The notes under the pieces: model-generated
The model's input: only the letters and a program-made list of their open reading frames with translations
Database searches by the model: none
Told to the model about the DNA's origin: nothing
Shown: positions 1 to 59,690 of the stretch, one piece after another
Numbering within the stretch: the first letter of the stretch is position 1
How the letters are laid out: the number at the start of each line of letters is the position of its first letter
Translations under genes and position numbers: made by a program
NCBI RefSeq assembly: GCF_016741855.1
Contig: NZ_JAERRH010000009.1
Span: forward strand, 248,001 to 312,000
DNA: 64,000 nucleotides
DNA from: Streptomyces musisoli
GTDB taxonomy: Bacteria; Actinomycetota; Actinomycetes; Streptomycetales; Streptomycetaceae
Direction of reading: 5' to 3'

Positions 1-647
1 TCAACAACGCGTTCTACCGGCTGCCGTCGTACGACACCTTCGCCGCCTGGCGCGACCGGGTCCCGCCGGACTTCGTGGTCGCGGTCAAGGCCAGCCGGTA
101 TCTCACCCACATCAAGCGCCTGAAGGACCCCGAGGAGCCTGTGCGGCGTCTGCTGACCCACGCGGCGGGCCTCGGCGACCGCCTGGGGCCGGTCCTGCTC
201 CAGCTGCCGCCCACCCTGCGCGCCGACCCGCCCCTGCTGGACGCCTGCCTGGCCTGTTTCCCGGCCGGTACGAGGGTCGCCGTGGAACCCCGCCACGACT
301 CCTGGTGGGCCCCGGAGCTGCGGCGCGTCCTGGAGTCCCGGGGCGCGGCCCTGTGCTGGGCGGACGTCCTGGCCCGCCCGGTCGCCCCGTTGTGGCGCAC
401 CACCGACTGGGGCTACGTCCGCTTCCACCAGGGCCGCGCCCGGCCCTGGCCGCGCTACGGCAGGCGTTCGCTGGAGACATGGGTGGACCGCATCGCCACG
501 ACGTGGTCCGACGCCGACGACGTCTAGGCGTACTTCAACAACGACCCGGGGGGCGCGGCGGTGCAGGACGCGGTGGCGTTCGGACGGACGGCGCGGAGGG
601 CAGGCCTGACGACGACACGCATCCCGGAACCACTGAAGCCGGGGTGA
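1..647 (+). pseudogene. DUF72 (YecE-like) protein, 5' end cut by the window, in-frame TAG near the C-terminus
   Basis: The reading frame enters from the left edge (first full codon at base 3) and translates as a DUF72/YecE-family TIM-barrel protein, with the typical FYRLPSYDTFAAWRDRVP start and VAVEPRHDSWW. At 525-527 it meets TAG. The same frame then continues without a further stop to TGA at 645-647, encoding AYFNNDPGGAAVQDA..., which is the conserved C-terminal segment of this family (usually V-Y-x-Y-F-N-N-D). The TAG therefore probably replaces a Tyr codon (TAC). The product would lose about 40 residues including the FNND motif. This may be a nonsense mutation or a sequencing error. The biochemical role of the family is not known to me. 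Confidence 0.75.
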
Positions 648-3334: not shown

Positions 3335-3469
3335 ATGCGCCGTATGACCGTGCAGAAGCCCCTGAAGCGGACGGACAGCCGCCGGCCCCGTGAGGACGCG
3401 GAGGAGCGCCCGGCGGGACGTCCGGAGGTGCGCAAGGACATCGCACGCACCTGGTGGCCCGACGGCTGA
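3335..3469 (+). CDS. Small basic protein, 44 residues, unknown function
   Basis: A short gene with a strong ribosome-binding site (AAGGAGG at 3323-3329, ATG at 3335). The 44-residue product is rich in Arg/Lys with a C-terminal KDIARTWWPDG. It has no Cys, no membrane segment and no recognisable domain. The tandem Trp near the C-terminus and the good Shine-Dalgarno argue for a real gene. Neighbours give no hint: a divergent methyltransferase lies upstream and a decayed region downstream. I do not recognise a family. It could be a conserved Streptomyces small protein or a modified-peptide precursor, but no maturation enzyme is nearby. Confidence 0.6.
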   Translation: MRRMTVQKPLKRTDSRRPREDAEERPAGRPEVRKDIARTWWPDG

Positions 3470-3597
3470 CGCCGTGACGCCTCGGTCCAGCCGCTTGGGT
3501 GGTGGATGCGGTCATAGGGGTTGCCGATCCGGCGCTTCCCGATTCGTACCCGTACTTCGGGCAGATCTCCCAGTCCTCCCACGTCATCGCGGGGTTG

Positions 3598-3847: not shown

Positions 3848-4903
3848 ATGCCCACCAGCTGCAAGGCCAAGGCGTCCGCCGTCGGTGTGCTCGGTCTGGT
3901 GCCGCTCGCCCTGACCGCGCTCGCCGCCGCCCCCGCGTCCGCGCACGGCTCGATGGGCGACCCGGTCAGCCGCGTCTCGCAGTGCTACGCGGAGGGGCCG
4001 GAGAGTCCGCGGTCGGCCGCGTGCAAGGCGGCCGTGGCGGCGGGCGGCACGCAGGCGCTGTACGACTGGAACGGCATCCGGATCGGCGACGCGGCGGGGC
4101 GGCACCGGCAGTTGATCCCGGACGGCAAGCTGTGCAGCGCGGGCAACGAGGAGTTCAAGGGGCTCGACCTGGCCCGGGCCGACTGGCCGGCGACCCGTGT
4201 GCGCGGTGGGTCGTACACCTTCAAGTACCGCGTGACCGCCCCGCACAAGGGCACCTTCAACGTCTATCTCACCAAGCCCGGTTACGACCCGGCGCGGCCG
4301 CCGGCCTGGTCCGACCTGGATCTGGAGCACCCGGTGGCGACGGCCACCGACCCGGTCGCGTCGGGCGGCTTCTACACCTTCTCCGGGACCCTGCCCGAGC
4401 GGTCCGGCAGGCATCTGCTGTACGCGGTCTGGCAGCGCTCGGACAGCCCGGAGGCGTTCTACTCCTGCTCGGACGTCGACTTCGGCGGCAACGGCGATAC
4501 GGGGAGCGGCAGCGGCGGCACGGGGAACGGCAACGGCCGGACGGGAAGCGGCAGCGGCCGGACGGAGAGCGGCAACGGCGGGACGACGCCGGCTCCGGCC
4601 GCCTCCGCGCCCTCCGACGAGCAGATCGAGGCCGGCGCCGGCAGGTCGACGATCGAGCACCACGGGCACGGGGACGACGACGCGAGCACCTCGGCCAAGC
4701 CCACCGCCGCCCCGGCACCGTCCACCGCCGCCCCGGCCAACCGGCCGAAGGCGGCCGGGGCTTCGGCGGACCTCGCGGAGACGGGTGCGTCCACCGGCAC
4801 GTCGTACCTCGCGATCGGTGGTGCGGCGGCGCTGGCGCTGGGCTCGGCGGCGCTGTTCCTGTCGGTGCGGCGGCGGGCGGCGGGCGGCACCCACCGCCGG
4901 TGA
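3848..4903 (+). CDS. Secreted, cell-wall-sorted lytic polysaccharide monooxygenase (AA10)
   Basis: A 351-residue precursor. The signal peptide ends ASA|HGS, exposing His33 as the N-terminal residue of the copper histidine brace; the second brace His is His133 (TAPHKGTF). The AA10 domain covers about residues 33-195 with Cys pairs (SQCYAEG/AACKAA, KLC/YSCSD), so it should oxidatively cleave chitin or cellulose. A Gly/Ser/Asn/Thr-rich linker with GSGSGGTGNGNG-type repeats follows, then a Pro/Ala/Thr linker, LAETG at about 309, a hydrophobic segment and an Arg-rich tail. That tail is a class E sortase sorting signal, so the enzyme is probably displayed on the cell wall rather than freely released. 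GAGGAG precedes the ATG. Confidence 0.92.
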   Translation: MPTSCKAKASAVGVLGLVPLALTALAAAPASAHGSMGDPVSRVSQCYAEGPESPRSAACKAAVAAGGTQALYDWNGIRIGDAAGRHRQLIPDGKLCSAGNEEFKGLDLARADWPATRVRGGSYTFKYRVTAPHKGTFNVYLTKPGYDPARPPAWSDLDLEHPVATATDPVASGGFYTFSGTLPERSGRHLLYAVWQRSDSPEAFYSCSDVDFGGNGDTGSGSGGTGNGNGRTGSGSGRTESGNGGTTPAPAASAPSDEQIEAGAGRSTIEHHGHGDDDASTSAKPTAAPAPSTAAPANRPKAAGASADLAETGASTGTSYLAIGGAAALALGSAALFLSVRRRAAGGTHRR

Positions 4904-7007: not shown

Positions 7008-7982
7008 TCACGCCGCCAGGGAGCCCGGCATCACCGCCCGCGGCCCGAACTTGGCCCGCGCACGGTCCGCGACCTCCTCGATGCGGCGGACCTTCTCGTC
7101 CACGGGGTCGAAGGTGAGCTGATGAGCGGCCCGGTCGGCGGGGATCAGGCCCTCGGCACGCAGGGCGAGCGCGCGGACCCGGGCCCGTTGCAGGCCGAGC
7201 GCCTCGTACATGCCGTAGGCGGCACTGGTCAGGGCCGCCGAGTGGGCGGTCGGCTCCTTCAGGGTGCGGCTGCGGGTGGTCGAGGAGCGGTCGGCGTAGC
7301 GCACGGTGAGGGTCAGGGTGCGGCAGACCTGCTCCACCGCGCGCAGCCGGGCGCCGATCTCCTCGGCGGCCGACAGCAGCGCCCTGCGGTGCCGGCCGGG
7401 GTCCAGTTCGTCGAGGCCGAAGGCCTGTTCCGTCACCAGCGACCGCGAGGCGGCGTTCGGCACGACCCGTCCGCGGTCGACGCCGCACGCCTTCTCGCGC
7501 AGCTCCCGGCCCGCCTTCGCGCCGATCAGCCGCTGGAGCGTGGAGAGCGGCGCGGCGGCGACCCGGCCCAGGGTGTCCAGGCCGTACTCGCCCAGGGTGC
7601 GGGCGGTCGCCGCGCCGACGCCGGGCAACGCGGACACCGGCCGCCCGGCGAGGAACTCCGCGATGGCGTCCGGGTCCCCGGGCACCGCGCAGGTCACCCC
7701 CGGCCGGGCCTCGCGCAGCGCCACGCGGGCCAGCATCGGGCCCGGTCCGGCGCCGATCACGCAGTCGACGCCGTACCGCGCGAGGGCCCGCACCCGGATC
7801 ACCGAGGCCAGCTCCACCGCGCTGCGCCCGAAGTACCGTTCGGCGCCGCGCAGATCGGCCAGCGCCCCGTCCGGCGGCAGCGCCTCCACGACCGGGGTGA
7901 ACTCCTCGAGGAGGCCGAGCAGCCCGGGAAACGCGGCCTCGTCCATCGGCGGCAGCTGGAAACGTACGCAGAGGATGGTCAT
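7008..7982 (-). CDS. ImuB-like Y-family polymerase homologue, catalytically inactive type
   Basis: A 324-residue protein related to DinB/Y-family polymerases: VIGAGPGPMLARVAL (palm), SALPGVGAATARTLGEYGLDTLGRVA (helix-hairpin-helix), and a little-finger domain. The catalytic acidic residues of active Y-family enzymes are not seen: the N-terminus is MTILCVRFQLP rather than a DFDxFF-type motif, and the S-x-DE motif is replaced (PDGALADLRG). This is the hallmark of ImuB, a non-catalytic adaptor that recruits DnaE2 and the sliding clamp to damaged DNA. The ATG overlaps the dnaE2 stop (ATGA), giving coupled translation. It is shorter than mycobacterial ImuB, and no imuA gene is adjacent. Confidence 0.8.
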   Translation of the reverse strand: MTILCVRFQLPPMDEAAFPGLLGLLEEFTPVVEALPPDGALADLRGAERYFGRSAVELASVIRVRALARYGVDCVIGAGPGPMLARVALREARPGVTCAVPGDPDAIAEFLAGRPVSALPGVGAATARTLGEYGLDTLGRVAAAPLSTLQRLIGAKAGRELREKACGVDRGRVVPNAASRSLVTEQAFGLDELDPGRHRRALLSAAEEIGARLRAVEQVCRTLTLTVRYADRSSTTRSRTLKEPTAHSAALTSAAYGMYEALGLQRARVRALALRAEGLIPADRAAHQLTFDPVDEKVRRIEEVADRARAKFGPRAVMPGSLAA

Positions 7983-49202: not shown

Positions 49203-50585
49203 ATGGCTTCCCTCTCGAAGGCGGGCGCGGCCCTCACCGCGCTGCGCGAGGACCTGGTGGGCGATGTGTTCGCCCCGGGGGACCCCGGCTACGACGAGGC
49301 TCGTACGGTCTTCAACGCGATGATCGACCGGCGGCCGGCGGTGATCGCCCAGTGCGCGAACGTGGCCGACGTGGTGCGGGCCGTGCGCTTCGGCCGGGAC
49401 CTGGACCTCCACATCGCGGTGCGCGGCGGCGGCCACAGCGTGGCGGGTGCGGCGCTGGGGGACGGCGCGCTCGTCGTGGACCTGCGCCGGATGCACGACG
49501 TGACGGTCGCCCCGGCCGCCGAGGCGGTCCGGGTCGAGGGCGGCGCCACGATGAGCCATCTCGACCGGGCCGCCCAGCCGTACGGCCTCGCGACCACCGG
49601 CGGGCGGGCCTCCACCACCGGGGTCGGCGGCTTCGTCCTCGGCGGCGGCACCGGCTGGCTGGCCCGCGCCTTCGGCCTGGCCGTCGACAACCTCCTCGGC
49701 ATCGAACTGGTGACCGCCGACGCGGAGCGGGTGCACGCGAACGCCGACGAGAACCCCGAGCTGTTCTGGGCGCTGCACGGCGGGGGCGGCAACTTCGGCA
49801 TCGCCACCGCGCTCACCCTGCGGCTGCACGAGCTGCCGGAGTTCTCCATCGCCCTGCTGCTGTACCTGCCGCACCTGGGCCCGGACGTGGTCCGTGTCTT
49901 CCGCGAGGTGGTCGGGGGCGGCCCGGACGAGGTGGGCGGCGCCGTGCTGTACCTGACCGGGCCGCCCGAGGAGTTCGTACCGCCGGAACTGGTGGGCAAG
50001 CTGGTGTGCGCCGGGCTGCTGACCTACGCGGGCGGCGAGGACGGACTGCGCGGGCTCGCCGAGCCGCTGCTGGCGCTGCCGCACGAGGCGGAGATCGTCG
50101 GCCCGATGCCGTACGCCGACGTCCAGTGCATGCTGGACGATCCTCCCGGCCGGCGGAACCACTGGTCCGCGGAGTACGTGACCGGTCTGCCCGACGAGCT
50201 GGTGGAGGTCTACTGCACCCGCGCGGAGAACATGCCCGTGCCGACCAGCACCCAGCACCTGCTGTTCCCGCAGGGCGGTGCGATCGCCGCCGGACCGCAC
50301 GAGTACCCGGTGCCCTACCGGGACGCACCCTGGGCGTTGCACCCCTTCGCCGTCTGGCAGGACCCGGCCGACGACGAGCGGGCCATCGCCTGGGTGCGGG
50401 AGGTGCGCGCCGACGCCCGGCCGTGGAGCACGGGCGCCGTGAACCTGAACTTCATCGGCGAGGAGGGCTCCGAGCGGGTGCGGGCGGGCCTGGGCGAGGG
50501 GAACCTGCTGCGGCTGGAGAAGGTGAAGCGGGCCTACGACCCCGACAACGTGTTCCGCTTCAACCACAACATCCGCCCGGTGTAG
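49203..50585 (+). CDS. FAD-linked oxidoreductase, berberine-bridge (BBE) type
   Basis: A 460-residue enzyme. The PCMH-type FAD domain has VAVRGGGHSVAGAALGDGALVVDLRRM (the His of RGGGHS is the usual covalent FAD link) and TTGVGGFVLGGGTGWLARAFGLAVDNLLGIELVTAD. The second Cys used for bicovalent attachment in many BBE enzymes is not seen. The C-terminal BBE motif (YDPDNVFRFNHNIRP) is intact. The substrate is unknown (alcohols, sugars or secondary metabolites in relatives). It is followed at once by the 66-bp repeat array. Confidence 0.88.
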   Translation: MASLSKAGAALTALREDLVGDVFAPGDPGYDEARTVFNAMIDRRPAVIAQCANVADVVRAVRFGRDLDLHIAVRGGGHSVAGAALGDGALVVDLRRMHDVTVAPAAEAVRVEGGATMSHLDRAAQPYGLATTGGRASTTGVGGFVLGGGTGWLARAFGLAVDNLLGIELVTADAERVHANADENPELFWALHGGGGNFGIATALTLRLHELPEFSIALLLYLPHLGPDVVRVFREVVGGGPDEVGGAVLYLTGPPEEFVPPELVGKLVCAGLLTYAGGEDGLRGLAEPLLALPHEAEIVGPMPYADVQCMLDDPPGRRNHWSAEYVTGLPDELVEVYCTRAENMPVPTSTQHLLFPQGGAIAAGPHEYPVPYRDAPWALHPFAVWQDPADDERAIAWVREVRADARPWSTGAVNLNFIGEEGSERVRAGLGEGNLLRLEKVKRAYDPDNVFRFNHNIRPV

Positions 50586-50946
50586 CGCGCAGCCACGGCA
50601 TCGGACCGGTGAGGTGTAAGTCCTCGACCCACGCCATCGGGTCCGGTGCGGCGTGGAGCCATGGCATCGGGCCGGTGAGATATGGGTCCTCAACCCACAC
50701 CATCCGGTCCGGTGTGGCACGCAGCCACGGCATCGGGCCGGTGAGATACGGGTCCTCAACCCACACCATCCGGTCCGGTGTGGCACGCAGCCACGGCATC
50801 GGGCCGGTGAGATACGGGTCCTCAACCCACACCATCCGGTCCGGTGCGGCGCGACGCCACGGCATCGGTCGGTGCGGCACGGAGCCCACACCGTCAGGCC
50901 GGTGTGGCACCGGGTTCTCCCGTCCGCGGTACCGGCCGGTGTGGCG
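50586..50946. repeat. Tandem array of 66-bp repeats
   Basis: Four successive copies start at 50591, 50657, 50723 and 50789, spaced exactly 66 bp, followed by a decayed fifth copy from about 50855. Copies 3 and 4 are nearly identical. Most units contain the inverted repeat CCACACC-ATCCGGTCC-GGTGTGG (for example 50695-50717). Since 66 is a multiple of three, all frames read as 22-residue repeats, but no start or domain supports translation. The array fills the 403 bp between the oxidoreductase stop and the PucR start; no gene is seen in it. Confidence 0.9.
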
Positions 50947-50988
50947 CGGAGCTGTCCTGCGGGCGTTTGCGCAGGTAGCGTCCGCTGC

Positions 50989-52635
50989 ATGGACAGCCGT
51001 ACGGACCACCGACTCGACACCCAGGGCGCCGGCATCACCGTGCAGCGGGCGCTGGAGCTGCCCGGCCTGCGCAGCGGGCTGCCGGAGATCCTGGCGGGCG
51101 CCGACCGGCTCGGCCGCACCGTCCGCTGGGTGCATGCGGGCGAGGTGCCGAACATCGCCTCGCTGCTCAAGGGCGGCGAGCTGCTGCTCACCACCGGCTA
51201 CGGCCTCGGTACCCGTCCGGCCGAGCAGCGGGCGTTCGTCCGGACCCTGGCCGAGCGGGGGATCGCGGCCCTGGTGGTGGAGCTGGGCCCGCGCTTCGCC
51301 CGGCTGCCCGCGGCCCTGGTGGACACGGCCCGGGCGGCCGGTCTGCCCCTGGTCCAGCTGCACCGCGAGGTGCCGTTCGTGACGGTCACCGAGGAGGTCC
51401 ACACCGAGATCGTCAACGGCCACTACGCCCTGCTCCAGCGCGCGGAGGAGGTGCACCGGCGCTGCACCGAGGCCTTGCTGGGCGGCGGCGGCGTGCCGCA
51501 GGTGCTGGGCATCCTCGCCGGCTTCAGCGGCAACCCGGTGTTCCTGGAGACGGCGGACGGCCGGCTGCTCTACGCCGCCGGGGAAGGCCCCGAGGGCGCC
51601 GACCCGCTCCAGGTGTGGGAGGGGCTGCGCGGCCCGCACAAGGAGGCTCCGCCGCCCGCCGGTTCGGTACTGGTGGACGTGCCCGGTGGCGGCCCCGGCA
51701 CGGCGGGCTCGGTGCGCGCCCGTCTGGTCCTGCTGCCGGTCCGCGCCCCGCTGGCCCCGGTGCACCGGATCGCCGCGGAGCGGGCCGCGGGCATCCTGGC
51801 CGTGGTGCTGATGCAGGCCCGGCAGGAGGAGGAACTGGCGGCACGCGGGCGCGGCGACTTCCTCACCGATCTCGCCGAGGGCCGCATCACGGCGGAGGAC
51901 GCCCCGGCGCAGGCCCGGGTCCTCGGCTTCAAGCCCGGCGACAGCCCGCTGCTGCCGGTGGTGATGCGGATCGGGGACACCCTCTCCCCCGGCGGGGGCT
52001 GGGCGGTGCTGGCCCGGGCGGTGTCGGAGGAGCTGGCCGCGGTGGGCGTGCCGGTGCTGCTGGGAGTGCGGCCGGTGGAGGGCCGGGTCCTGGTGCTGCT
52101 GGGACTGCGCTCGGAGTCGGAACGGGCGGCGGTCGCGGACCGGGTGGCCGCTGCGCTGCGGGCGGGGGTGGACCGGGCCGGGATGCGGCGGCCGGGCTCA
52201 CCGCCACCGGTGGTGGTCGTCGGGGTGGCCGGCGGCTGGGCGGCGGCCTCGGCGGGGCTGCGGCACGCGGCGGAGACGGCGACGGCGGCCCAGGGCCTGA
52301 CCGACCGGCCCTGGTACGACGCCCGGCGCCTCGACATCGACCTGCTGCTGTGGCGGCTGCGTGACCACCCGGACCTGGCGGCCTTCGTGGACCGCGCGAT
52401 CGGCCCGCTGCGCGACCACGACCACCGCTCCAGGCCGCCGCTGCTGCCGACCCTGGAGACCTATCTCGCGCACGCCGGCCGCAAGGCGGAGACGGCCCGC
52501 GAACTGCACCTCAACCGGCAGACGCTGTACAACCGGCTCGCCCGCATCGGCGAGTTGCTCGGCACGGACCTCGACGACCCGCAGACGGTCCTGGCCCTGA
52601 GCCTGGCCCTCCGCGCCCGCCGCCACGTCCCTTAG
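50989..52635 (+). CDS. PucR-family transcriptional regulator
   Basis: A 548-residue protein. The N-terminal PucR domain has TVQRALELPGLRSGLPEILAGADRLGRTVRWVHAGEV and LLKGGELLLTTGYGL, a central region has GGDEF-like topology, and the C-terminal helix-turn-helix is YLAHAGRKAETARELHLNRQTLYNRLARIGELLG. Such activators respond to purines or other nitrogen compounds. The target is unknown; its own promoter must lie within or just after the 66-bp repeat array, and the ATG follows TAGCGT closely with no Shine-Dalgarno, so the mRNA may be leaderless. Confidence 0.9.
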   Translation: MDSRTDHRLDTQGAGITVQRALELPGLRSGLPEILAGADRLGRTVRWVHAGEVPNIASLLKGGELLLTTGYGLGTRPAEQRAFVRTLAERGIAALVVELGPRFARLPAALVDTARAAGLPLVQLHREVPFVTVTEEVHTEIVNGHYALLQRAEEVHRRCTEALLGGGGVPQVLGILAGFSGNPVFLETADGRLLYAAGEGPEGADPLQVWEGLRGPHKEAPPPAGSVLVDVPGGGPGTAGSVRARLVLLPVRAPLAPVHRIAAERAAGILAVVLMQARQEEELAARGRGDFLTDLAEGRITAEDAPAQARVLGFKPGDSPLLPVVMRIGDTLSPGGGWAVLARAVSEELAAVGVPVLLGVRPVEGRVLVLLGLRSESERAAVADRVAAALRAGVDRAGMRRPGSPPPVVVVGVAGGWAAASAGLRHAAETATAAQGLTDRPWYDARRLDIDLLLWRLRDHPDLAAFVDRAIGPLRDHDHRSRPPLLPTLETYLAHAGRKAETARELHLNRQTLYNRLARIGELLGTDLDDPQTVLALSLALRARRHVP

Positions 52636-54856: not shown

Positions 54857-54891
54857 CCGACCACCCTAAGTCCCACCGAACTCCGGCCGCC

Positions 54892-55145
54892 CGTTCCGCG
54901 AGGGATCCGCCCGCACGCTCCCCGAGGGATCCGCCCGCAGGTTCCGCCGCAGACCCGGCCGCACGTTTTCGGTGCAGCTCCGGCCGCACGTTCCCGCGGA
55001 GATCGGCCCGCCCGGTTCTCGCGGAGATCCGGCCCCACGTTCCGGTGGAGGACGGCCCGCCTGGTTCCGCCAGAGACCCGCCTGGTTTCGCCAGAGATCC
55101 CCGGTTCTGCCAAAGATCCGCTCGGTTTCGCTAGAGATCCGCCCG
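54892..55145. repeat. Degenerate tandem repeats, 19-26 bp, at the 3' end of recN
   Basis: About eleven units of the form GTT(C/T)CGC-(G/C)(A/G)GAGATCCGCCCG can be aligned head to tail from 54892 to 55145. Examples: CGAGGGATCCGCCCGC twice at the left, and TTTCGCCAGAGATCC and TTTCGCTAGAGATCC at the right. The last unit contains the recN stop codon (CTA on this strand at 55131-55133) and its final codons, so the array seems to have grown from the end of recN. No gene lies in 54857-55130. Confidence 0.75.
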
Positions 55146-56861
55146 GGCCGTCGCCAGCAGCTCCTCCGCGTGCGCGCGGGCCGTCTCGGAGTCCTCCTGG
55201 CCGGCCAGCATGCGGGACAGCTCGCGGATCCGCTCCTCGCCCTCCAGCACCTTCACACCGGACCGGGTGACCGACCCGTCGTTGGTCTTCTCCACCAGCA
55301 GCTGCCGGTCGGCGAACGCGGCGACCTGCGGCAGGTGGGTGACCACGACGACCTGCGCGGTCCTGGCGAGCTTCGCCAGGCGCCGGCCGATCTCGACCGC
55401 CGCCTTGCCGCCGACACCGGCGTCGACCTCGTCGAAGAGATACGTCGGCACGGGGTCCGTCCCCGCGAACACGACCTCGACGGCGAGCATCACCCGGGAC
55501 AGCTCACCACCGGAGGCGCCCTTGGCGATGGGCCGCGGCGGGGCGCCCGGGTGCGGGGCGAGCAGCAGTTCGACCTCGTCCACGCCCGACGGGCCGTAGG
55601 CGACCGTCCGCCCGCCGACCTCGACGCCCTCCGGGTCCTCGGTCTGCCGGAGGTCGAACGACACGCGCGCGTGGGGCATCGCCAGCGAGGCCAGCTCGGC
55701 GGTCACCGCCGCGGCGAACCGCTCGGCGGCCTCGGTCCGCGCGTCCGTCAACGCCTGCGCGAGACCGCCCAGTTCGGTGCGGAGCGCGTCCCGCTCGGCG
55801 GTCAGCTCCCCGATCCGCTCGTCGTCGCCGTCCAGCTCGCCGAGCCGGGCGGCGCTCTGCTCGGACCACGCGAGGACGGCGTTCACGTCCTCGCCGTACT
55901 TGCGCGTCAACGCGGTCAGCGCGGCCCGGCGCTCCTCCACGGCGGCCAGCCGCAGCGGGTCGGCGTCGAGATCGTCGGCGTATCCCGCCAGCTCACCCGC
56001 CACATCGCCGAGCAGGATGCCGATCTCCCCGATCCGGTCGGCGAGCGCGGCCAGCGCCGGATCGTGCGACCGCACGGCCTCCAGGGCGCGGTGGGCGCCC
56101 GCGACCAGGGTCGAGGCGTCGATCCCCTCGGGGTCCTCCGGATTGCCCGCGAGAGCGGCGTGCCCGGCCGTCGCGGCGGAGGACAGCGCCTCGGCGTGCC
56201 CCAGCCGCTCGGCCTCCTCGGCCAGCTCCGCGTCCTCGCCGGGCCGGGGCTCCACGGCGGCGATCTCGTCGAGCCCGTACCGCAGCATGTCGGCTTCCTG
56301 CGCCCGCTCACGCGCGCGCGTGGTGATCTCCTCCAGCTCGGTGGAGACGGCCCGCAGCCGCTTGTACGCCTCCGTGTACTTGGCGAGCGGCACGGCGACG
56401 GTGTCGCCCGCGTACCGGTCGAGCGCCTGCCGCTGCCGGGACTGCTTCAGCAGCCCCTGCTGGTCGGTCTGCCCGTGCACGGCCGCCAGGTCGTCGGCCA
56501 GCTCGGCGAGCAGCCCGACGGGCACGCTGCGCCCGCCCAGATGCGCCCGGGAGCGGCCCTCGGCGGAGATGGTGCGGCTGATCAGCAGGGCTCCGTCGTC
56601 CAGCTCCGCCCCGGCCTCCTCGGCGCGTACGACGGCGGCGGCGCCGGAGGGTACGGCGACCCGTCCCTCCACGACCGCCTTCTCGGCCCCGACCCGCACG
56701 AGCGCCGGGTCCGCCCGGCCGCCGAGCAGCAGCCCGAGGCTCGTGACCACCATGGTCTTGCCCGCACCCGTCTCACCGGTGACGGCGGTGAACCCCGGCG
56801 ACAGCTCGACGACGGCATCGTCGATGACCCCGAGCGACCGTATCCGCATCTCCTCCAACAC
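55131..56861 (-). CDS. recN: DNA repair ATPase RecN
   Basis: A 576-residue SMC-like protein: N-terminal Walker A GETGAGKT, a long coiled-coil region (about 160-370, for example YTEAYKRLRAVSTELEEITTRARERAQEAD), then the ABC signature ASGGELSRVMLAV and Walker B PTYLFDEVDAGVGGKAAVEIG. It acts in double-strand-break repair. The start is uncertain: GTG 56861 (MLEEMRIRSLG) is used; ATG 56849 and 56873 are in frame. nadK and recN are separated by 153 bp. The gene ends inside a degenerate repeat array. Confidence 0.95.
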   Translation of the reverse strand: MLEEMRIRSLGVIDDAVVELSPGFTAVTGETGAGKTMVVTSLGLLLGGRADPALVRVGAEKAVVEGRVAVPSGAAAVVRAEEAGAELDDGALLISRTISAEGRSRAHLGGRSVPVGLLAELADDLAAVHGQTDQQGLLKQSRQRQALDRYAGDTVAVPLAKYTEAYKRLRAVSTELEEITTRARERAQEADMLRYGLDEIAAVEPRPGEDAELAEEAERLGHAEALSSAATAGHAALAGNPEDPEGIDASTLVAGAHRALEAVRSHDPALAALADRIGEIGILLGDVAGELAGYADDLDADPLRLAAVEERRAALTALTRKYGEDVNAVLAWSEQSAARLGELDGDDERIGELTAERDALRTELGGLAQALTDARTEAAERFAAAVTAELASLAMPHARVSFDLRQTEDPEGVEVGGRTVAYGPSGVDEVELLLAPHPGAPPRPIAKGASGGELSRVMLAVEVVFAGTDPVPTYLFDEVDAGVGGKAAVEIGRRLAKLARTAQVVVVTHLPQVAAFADRQLLVEKTNDGSVTRSGVKVLEGEERIRELSRMLAGQEDSETARAHAEELLATARADL

Positions 56862-57014
56862 GGAACAGACCATACGAGGTCCGGGGCACGGAACGCACAT
56901 GGCCCGCCCATGTCACTCCGCCGAGTGGTCCCCCGCCGAGGGGCGCGGGGCACCGTGCGACCGGCCCCACGCACCCACGGCCGCCGACGAAGCGTGACCA
57001 CCCCCCACAAACCG

Positions 57015-58732: not shown

Positions 58733-58808
58733 GTTCGGTTCAGCTCCTGCTCTGGTACGGCGTCGGTGACGCCGGATGCGACGATCGAAAGGCGGGACCC
58801 GAAGGATC

Positions 58809-59093
58809 TCACCGAGGGGCGGCGGTCGGGTGACCGCCGGGAACCGGAGGTCCCGGGCGGGCGTCGAGCGCGGTGAGCGCGTCACGCAGCCCCCTGTGTA
58901 CATCCTCGTACACCTCGACATGGCCGTCGGTGGCGAGGTGGTCGGTGTCGGCCAGCCGTTCCAGCTGCGCGTCGACCTCGGCGTTGCCGGTAGGGGTGCG
59001 CGGGACGTCCAGGGGGGCCGGGGCGGCGGGGTCGTACTCGGGCTCGGACTCGGCCACGGCTTCCGCGGGGGCCTCGGACACGGACTCGCTCAT
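58809..59093 (-). CDS. Small conserved acidic protein, 94 residues
   Basis: The N-terminal 35 residues are acidic and disordered (SEAPAEAVAESEPEYDPAAP). The C-terminal part NAEVDAQLERLADTDHLATDGHVEVYEDVHRGLRDALTALDA is a compact helical region that looks conserved. No catalytic motif. It lies just upstream of tlyA on the same strand (76-bp gap), so it may be the first gene of the tlyA-nadK-recN operon. Function unknown. Confidence 0.75.
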   Translation of the reverse strand: MSESVSEAPAEAVAESEPEYDPAAPAPLDVPRTPTGNAEVDAQLERLADTDHLATDGHVEVYEDVHRGLRDALTALDARPGPPVPGGHPTAAPR

Positions 59094-59135
59094 GCCCAGA
59101 CGCTACCCCGAACCCCTGGGGTACCGTCGTGGACG

Positions 59136-59483
59136 ATGGCCACGATCGAGGAGTGCCGCGCCGCACTGGGGAAGCTTTCGGACAACATGCAGGGCGCCGA
59201 GGGCGAGGTCGGCGCTGCTGCCGCCCTGGACCGCTCGGTGAGCTGTCACATCACGGATCTGGACGTCACCTTCGTCGGCCGGATGACCGGCGGCCGGCTG
59301 GAGGTCGACGAGACCATCCCCGGCCCGCCCCGCGAGAAGGCACGGATCCGGCTCGCCATGGCGGGGGACGATCTGGTGGCCCTGGTGGGCGGTGAGCTGA
59401 ACTTCGCGACCGCCTGGGGTTCGGGCCGGGTGAAGCTGGACGCGAGCCTGCTGGATCTGTTCCGGCTGAGAAAGCTGCTGTAA
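59136..59483 (+). CDS. SCP2 sterol-binding-domain protein
   Basis: A 115-residue single-domain SCP2-like protein: SVSCHITDLDVTFVGRMTGGRLEVDE, KARIRLAMAGDDLVALVGGELNFATAWGSGRVKLDASLLDLFRLRKLL. The hydrophobic tunnel fold binds lipids or fatty acyl groups. Divergent from the 94-residue gene across 42 bp. The stop is followed directly by a tandem repeat array. Confidence 0.85.
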   Translation: MATIEECRAALGKLSDNMQGAEGEVGAAAALDRSVSCHITDLDVTFVGRMTGGRLEVDETIPGPPREKARIRLAMAGDDLVALVGGELNFATAWGSGRVKLDASLLDLFRLRKLL

Positions 59484-59690
59484 GCCCGCAGGGGGAAGCC
59501 GTTGGGGGCTCGTTCGCGGGAAGCCGTTGGGGCTCCTTCACGGGGAGCCGCTGGGGCTCGTTCGCGGGAAGCCGCCGTGGACCCGCCCACGGCAAGCCGC
59601 TGCGGGCACGGCCACGGGAAGCCGCGGTGAGCCCGTTCGCCGGGCGCCGCCGTGAGCCCGTTCGCCGGACGTCGTTGCGGGGGGCCGCGG
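59484..59690. repeat. Degenerate tandem repeats, about 24-26 bp, after the SCP2 gene
   Basis: About eight head-to-tail units resemble GCTCGTTCGCGGGAAGCCGTTGG, starting right after the SCP2 stop. Units near 59510 and 59548 share TCGTTCGCGGGAAGCCG exactly, and later units drift to AGCCCGTTCGCCGG. The array fills the gap to the convergent ABC transporter operon, and no gene or clear terminator is seen. Confidence 0.75.

Follow-up and report, generated by a model that had tools for sequence, protein, structure and literature searches.

A tandem array upstream of a Streptomyces PucR gene is probably a young minisatellite seeded by the end of the neighbouring gene

A 66-bp tandem array carrying hairpins lies upstream of a regulator gene in Streptomyces musisoli, and its position raises a simple question; is the array a device that controls the regulator, or is it DNA that has multiplied where its length hardly matters? 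In the window, by which we mean the whole 64,000-nucleotide stretch analysed here (contig C137 of the source genome, G000), a plus-strand gene at 49203–50585 encodes a FAD-binding/berberine-bridge (BBE) oxidoreductase (Pfam PF01565, FAD_binding_4, and PF08031), and a second plus-strand gene at 50989–52635 encodes a 548-aa PucR-family regulator (PF07905 and PF13556), whose start at ATG 50989 is common to most relatives. The C-terminal part of the oxidoreductase is 58–85% identical in relatives in which the first 250 residues of PucR are 90–98% identical, a divergence beside a conserved regulator that suggests fast evolution or gene replacement. An earlier note, written from the letters of this DNA, had described the array between the two genes and proposed a multimerised binding site, a transcript-stabilising element or a slipped-strand minisatellite. 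The array and its neighbours are real, as the TRF score of 450 and the Pfam domains attest. We put at roughly three in four the chance that the array is a young, lineage-specific, single-locus minisatellite, a dimer derived from the end of the oxidoreductase gene and enlarged by slippage in a 3' flank that tolerates extra length, without a dedicated role for PucR.

TRF places the array at 50560–50868 with a period of 66 bp, 87% matches and 4.7 copies, a number that may be collapsed in this 147-contig draft assembly. Four 66-bp copies occupy 50587–50850 on the plus strand, with starts at 50587, 50653, 50719 and 50785, and a decayed fifth copy (from 50851) with its tail occupies 50851–50944. The earlier note spoke of four precise copies plus a decayed one; the decayed copy is present, but the four are inexact, with identities of 65/66 between copies 3 and 4, 61/66 between copies 2 and 3, 60/66 between copies 2 and 4, and 54–56/66 (82–85%) between copy 1 and the others. 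Both TRF and the pairwise identities show head-to-tail units within the range of about 10–100 bp and outside genes, as expected of a minisatellite. The left edge of the array, according to TRF and alignment, enters the oxidoreductase gene from 50560, because the last ~30 nt of that gene resemble the unit. Each 66-bp unit seems to be made of two motifs, both similar to the gene end, and half-unit alignment divides this apparent dimer into half A (36 nt, beginning CCACGGCATCGGGCCGGTG) and half B (30 nt, beginning CCACACCATCCGGTCCGGTGTGG).

Related genomes show what the locus looks like when no array is present. We compared 110 loci (L008–L117, the window's own included), in 59 of which an oxidoreductase gene ends no more than 700 bp upstream of PucR; the other 51 were excluded from the gap count. 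These 59 loci yield 49 distinct gaps, again including the window's own, with a median of 50 bp; 44 of the 49 are at most 101 bp, and four long gaps besides that of the window measure 202, 342, 556 and 620 bp. The array is absent from the other 48 distinct orthologous gaps. The most informative empty site is that of S. echinatus (L055), in which the whole gap is 44 bp and identical to window positions 50945–50988, and in which the gene end differs from that of the window at one position in the last 33 nt; L009, from genome G016, is the same sequence. The window therefore has 359 extra bases, 50586–50944, bounded by CCGGTGTAGCGCG and CCGGTGTGGCGCG. The closing motif at 50936–50948 mirrors the one at 50577–50589 with an offset of 359 bp. 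Loss of the array in the relatives instead is possible but would probably require many separate losses.

The array also appears to be confined to one place in one genome. When a 361-base array query was compared with 392 genomes of the genus (one per species, G000 counted), with the two best candidate places per genome scored, a full match was found in G000 only. Matches in 22 further genomes were limited to pieces of 26 to 80 bp, the best with an E value of 2.9e-6, and we take them for chance likeness. The same query against 61 genomes, with 11 places scored, found G000 and fragments in six others. Neither search, at 11 and 2 scored candidate places, found a second array locus in G000, and a dispersed repeat family was rejected on this ground.

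Where, then, did the unit come from? The last ~30 nt of the oxidoreductase gene, which code for NHNIRPV and the stop, are the likely seed; this gene end, TCAACCACAACATCCGCCCGGTGTAGCGCG at 50560–50589 on the plus strand, with the stop TAG at 50583–50585, aligns locally to the array with a score of 30, whereas dinucleotide shuffles average 16, peak at 27 and reach 30 in none of 2000 trials. The unit motifs resemble the gene end with its stop codon included, TAG having become TGG in one of them. Against half B the alignment extends over about 31 nt, against half A over only 19 nt. Compared directly, the two halves match with a score of 18, which 38 of 2000 shuffles reach; this match is only weakly significant, and thus the dimer reading rests mainly on the match of each half to the gene end. 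Since most orthologues that have no array share the same oxidoreductase gene ending, it is most likely that the gene gave rise to the array, rather than the other way round.

Shorter duplications at the same locus in other strains are consistent with this direction. In both L052 (Streptomyces sp. NK08204) and L071 (Streptomyces sp. TRM70350) the strain's own gene end is copied together with its stop, at p of about 0.001 against the ends of other genes. L103 likewise has a gene-end copy (p 0.001), in a match without the stop codon, and the copy in L023 is weaker (p 0.024); L024 and L040 look similar by eye, and their gene-end copies are not significant (0.085 and 0.136). From the scattered occurrence and different sequences of these duplications, we infer that they arose independently of the one in the window.

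A plausible history runs as follows. An early tandem duplication across the stop codon would have produced two copies of about 30–36 nt, and it would have been harmless, since translation still ends at the first copy. The two copies would then have diverged, the stop TAG changing to TGG in one, and the diverged pair would have been amplified as a 66-bp dimer through replication slippage or unequal recombination. The array may have persisted because it is flanked by a stop codon on one side and a self-contained promoter on the other, a place in which added length should make little difference, and its hairpins would follow incidentally from a weak palindrome already present in the gene end. Among the proposals of the earlier note, it is the slipped-strand minisatellite that agrees with the data, given the empty sites in relatives, the near-identity of copies 3 and 4 (65/66) and the 359-bp offset between the two copies of the gene-end motif.

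The self-contained promoter deserves closer description. The 44 bp at 50945–50988 (plus strand), which form the entire S. echinatus gap, hold what the orthologue comparison shows to be a conserved PucR promoter block, with AGCTGTCC at −39 to −32, TAGCGT at −13 to −8 and then 7 nt to the ATG. Conservation begins at about −43, continues to the ATG and is highest around −39 to −33 and at −13 to −8, and 78 of 80 named relatives have GGTANNNTC-N4-6-ATG at the PucR start, the exceptions (L115 and L116) having near variants. In S. lividans the −10 element is TANNNT and about 20% of ORFs are leaderless (PMC6742748); the spacing here fits that −10 element, and the PucR promoter may thus be of the leaderless type. 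The array sits upstream of this block, which is complete without it. Contrary to the suggestion that the repeats fill the whole region upstream of PucR, the last ~40 bp before the ATG are free of repeats. In L045 (S. olivaceoviridis), at about 3415–3500, the PucR promoter region itself seems to be partly tandem-duplicated (GCGGCTGTGCTGAGGG...GCGGCTGTCCTGAGGG).

Could the array be a multimerised operator, bound by PucR or another regulator, with a copy number that tunes PucR? Its place directly upstream of the promoter and its palindromic half-unit would suit such a role, and a length effect has a precedent in M. tuberculosis, in which longer repeats upstream of Mtb-fpg1 go with modestly higher mRNA (PMC2734929). 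However, the block that orthologues conserve extends no further than about 43 bp from the ATG and lies downstream of the array, and the array query, with 11 and 2 candidate places scored, matches once in a strain that has four other PucR-domain genes, although a query of 361 bases would miss a short lone site. What we take to be the core of the B. subtilis-type PucR box, TTGGTTAA, has no match in the array even at one mismatch, and arrays of this kind are overrepresented in convergent gaps, which have no gene start downstream. We thus regard an operator as very improbable. The multimerised PucR binding site of the earlier note finds no footing in a promoter block that is complete without the array, in gaps of at most 101 bp in 44 of 49 cases and in a single array match in the strain; a PucR operator array was rejected as being neither conserved upstream of orthologues nor present at more than a single locus. 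A modest effect of array length on neighbouring expression may nonetheless exist.

The divisibility of 66 by three had led to the statement that all frames stay open across the array, which does not hold. Stops interrupt the plus frame from 50586 in all four units, and a minus frame in most units; in the PucR frame the only stop lies in copy 1, and reading is uninterrupted from GTG 50653; one plus and two minus frames are open across the entire array. Could the array then be translated, lengthening PucR at its N-terminus, with 112 extra codons from GTG 50653 in the same frame and 22-aa repeats? An open reading frame of 660 aa (50653–52635) does exist, and the unit is a multiple of three; against this, GC3 is 0.72 in the extension and 0.95 in PucR, the promoter-like block directly before the ATG is common to orthologues and the array is found in no other species searched. 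Such an extension is hardly credible, and we rejected it on GC3 and orthologue starts. With no stop in the PucR frame after GTG 50653, an annotation pipeline might nevertheless predict a PucR of 660 aa whose N-terminus, over 50653–50988, is an artefact made of repeats.

As for the hairpins, the earlier note assigned CCACACC...GGTGTGG to most copies; a perfect 7-bp stem is indeed present in three of the five B half-units (copies 2, 3 and 5, −11.0 to −14.5 kcal/mol), but copies 1 and 4 end in GGTGCGG. A functional 3'-UTR element, whose hairpins slow 3'-to-5' decay or stop read-through and so insulate the PucR promoter, would be served by these stems, by two substitutions relative to the gene end that complete them, an A replaced by C and the A of the stop replaced by G, and by a fold more stable than that of shuffles on the plus strand (z −3.4, 0/100; minus strand z −2.2, 2/100). 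This extra stability is expected by construction from tandem inverted repeats, and it could also reflect a function. An intrinsic (Rho-independent) terminator with a GC-rich stem and T-run was rejected, with no terminator-like site in 50500–51050, although the missing T-run is not decisive given how few S. lividans transcripts end in a U-rich motif (194 of 1640 3' ends; PMC6742748). Weighing further against the 3'-UTR element, the stems are broken in two of the five half-units, the relatives do without the array, and array-bearing 3' flanks elsewhere show no more structure than those without arrays (mean z −0.79 versus −1.40, n = 51 and 230, Mann-Whitney p = 0.12), a comparison on which hairpins were rejected as a common function of such arrays. 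Rfam gives no match at or above gathering score in the window. We consider the 3'-UTR element unlikely, if less so than an operator. Nothing that we found supports a regulatory role, and the array has the look of repetition that the genome puts up with, not of a regulatory device.

Is the minisatellite an isolated case, or does it belong to a wider pattern after stop codons? A codon-model gene caller predicted 270 genes in the 316-kb contig of G000, and the gene ends were compared with the gap beyond; the match is significant at p ≤ 0.01 for 12 of 187 stop flanks, where 1.9 would be expected, and for 3 of 209 start flanks, where 2.1 would be. Across seven Streptomyces genomes, a copy spanning the whole stop at a score of at least 30 occurs in 11 of 491 stop flanks (0.0 with swapped gaps) and in none of 543 start flanks, and at a score of 24 the same samples give 22 stop flanks versus 5 start flanks (1.8 with swapped gaps). 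By a broader measure of tandem copies in gaps of at least 120 bp, applied to 11 Streptomyces samples from seven genomes, 71 of 498 stop flanks versus 29 of 742 start flanks are positive (Fisher p = 1e-10), in counts that use predicted genes in samples of 80–316 kb and enter convergent and divergent gaps from both sides, so that this test and those that follow overstate the number of independent cases. Convergent flanks are enriched relative to co-directional ones (28/96 versus 23/185, p = 0.001). Dinucleotide-shuffled flanks hold far fewer tandem copies in G000 and come close to the observed numbers in several small samples.

The stop codon itself does not appear to be the cause. Copies of the segment from −20 to 20 are found at 24 of 273 stop flanks, and copies of 0..40, 20..60 and 40..80 at 32, 35 and 35, while the same four queries give 6, 11, 10 and 10 of 363 start flanks. 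Copies that span the stop do not outnumber those within the gap, and the stop codon as a special seeding hotspot was rejected; the simplest reading is therefore that slippage is tolerated anywhere after the coding region, stop included. The stop marks where tolerance begins and is not a proven hotspot.

Two other arrays in the window fit this description to different degrees. The one at 54882–55143 (TRF periods 24/49 and 21/40) extends over the stop of the minus-strand gene at 55131–56900, presumably recN, and its units are similar to the end of that gene (gene-end test, p = 0.010). The one at 59493–59669, with 24–25 bp units, lies right after the stop of the gene at 58776–59483, whose end its units resemble by eye, and it is not among the best gene-end test results listed. 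Both arrays thus begin at or next to a gene stop. In orthologue-matched comparisons, which are biased in that they were chosen from gaps long in G000, the gap at 55131 is below 120 bp in G016, G267 and G104 and is 263 and 276 bp without an array in G009 and G013, and the gap at 59483 is below 120 bp in five of five relatives. In S. echinatus (position 7770 of the G016 stretch), a short repeat follows a gene whose end matches that of the gene at 58776–59483. Further stop flanks with tandem copies in the window lie at 4903/5032 and 62936. The idea that all three intergenic arrays of the window are stop-derived proved overstated, given these further flanks and a likeness at 59493 judged by eye.

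The pattern is uneven among strains. In G000, 29 of 102 stop flanks hold tandem copies, and in S. echinatus (G016) 7 of 26; about a quarter of the post-stop gaps of at least 120 bp in the stretches sampled from these two thus hold diverged tandem copies, some of which include the stop codon itself. Four samples around the orthologous PucR locus give 20 of 217 (G009 7/54, G013 8/57, G267 3/49, G104 2/57; p = 2e-5 for G000 versus these four), and no flank among 39 in the G009_core sample holds tandem copies. Other actinobacterial samples, with convergent and co-directional stop flanks combined, give 4/35 (G038), 2/31 (G045), 0/35 (G037) and 3/23 (G052). Tandem copies follow 2 of 29 co-directional stops in Cupriavidus, one apparently stop-including, and the pattern is therefore not confined to Actinobacteria. 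In E. coli no stop flank among 61 reaches a score of 26 or more, and the broader measure gives 4 of 10 convergent flanks, which are two gaps each counted from both sides and whose repeats we take, by eye, to be of the REP type. It is possible, though we would not bet on it, that certain Streptomyces lineages, including the G000 strain and S. echinatus, are going through a burst in which new satellites arise in the 3' flanks of genes. If so, gene ends would be a steady source of new intergenic DNA and longer 3' UTRs, and the loss or gain of a stop in a repeat would change C-termini.

What makes the locus valuable is that it is a readable record of a birth, with an empty site, a likely seed, short duplications elsewhere and a later 66-bp expansion. 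It also carries two warnings; intergenic hairpin arrays should not be taken for regulators by default, and the GTG that lies in frame within the array should not be annotated as the PucR start. More widely, tandem copies are several times commoner after stops than before starts, unevenly so among strains.

How does the array compare with known repeat systems? REP elements are a dispersed repeat family. The tandem copies described here resemble the REP/BIME repeats of E. coli in placing palindromic repeats in 3' flanks between convergent genes; unlike them, the Streptomyces unit occupies one locus in G000, with no dispersed palindromic intergenic family found there, and resembles the end of the adjacent gene. 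A closer parallel is VNTR3239/ETR-F of M. tuberculosis, a set of composite tandem repeats between rnc and fpg1, where the gap is 1–54 bp in other mycobacteria and 279–358 bp in array bearers (PMC2734929); in both cases a tandem array fills an otherwise short gap between neighbouring genes of a high-GC actinobacterium. For VNTR3239/ETR-F, variation among isolates and a link to expression are reported (PMC2734929). MIRUs, in contrast, are scattered over 41 places (PMC2734929), and no related units at many loci were found for the 66-bp unit, the 361-bp query matching once in G000 with 11 and 2 candidate places scored. In a survey of prokaryote satellites, many are unique and mutually unrelated, and S. 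coelicolor has 38 of them, or 4.20 per Mb (PMC6749651); the Streptomyces unit, found at a single locus, is like these unique, non-transposed satellites. The available portion of that survey makes no mention of a bias towards 3' flanks or of an origin from gene ends, and at the level of titles and abstracts we found no description of stop-including intergenic arrays in Streptomyces. The array thus belongs to a known kind, the minisatellite, most likely seeded by the 3' end of a gene and with an unusually readable record of its birth.
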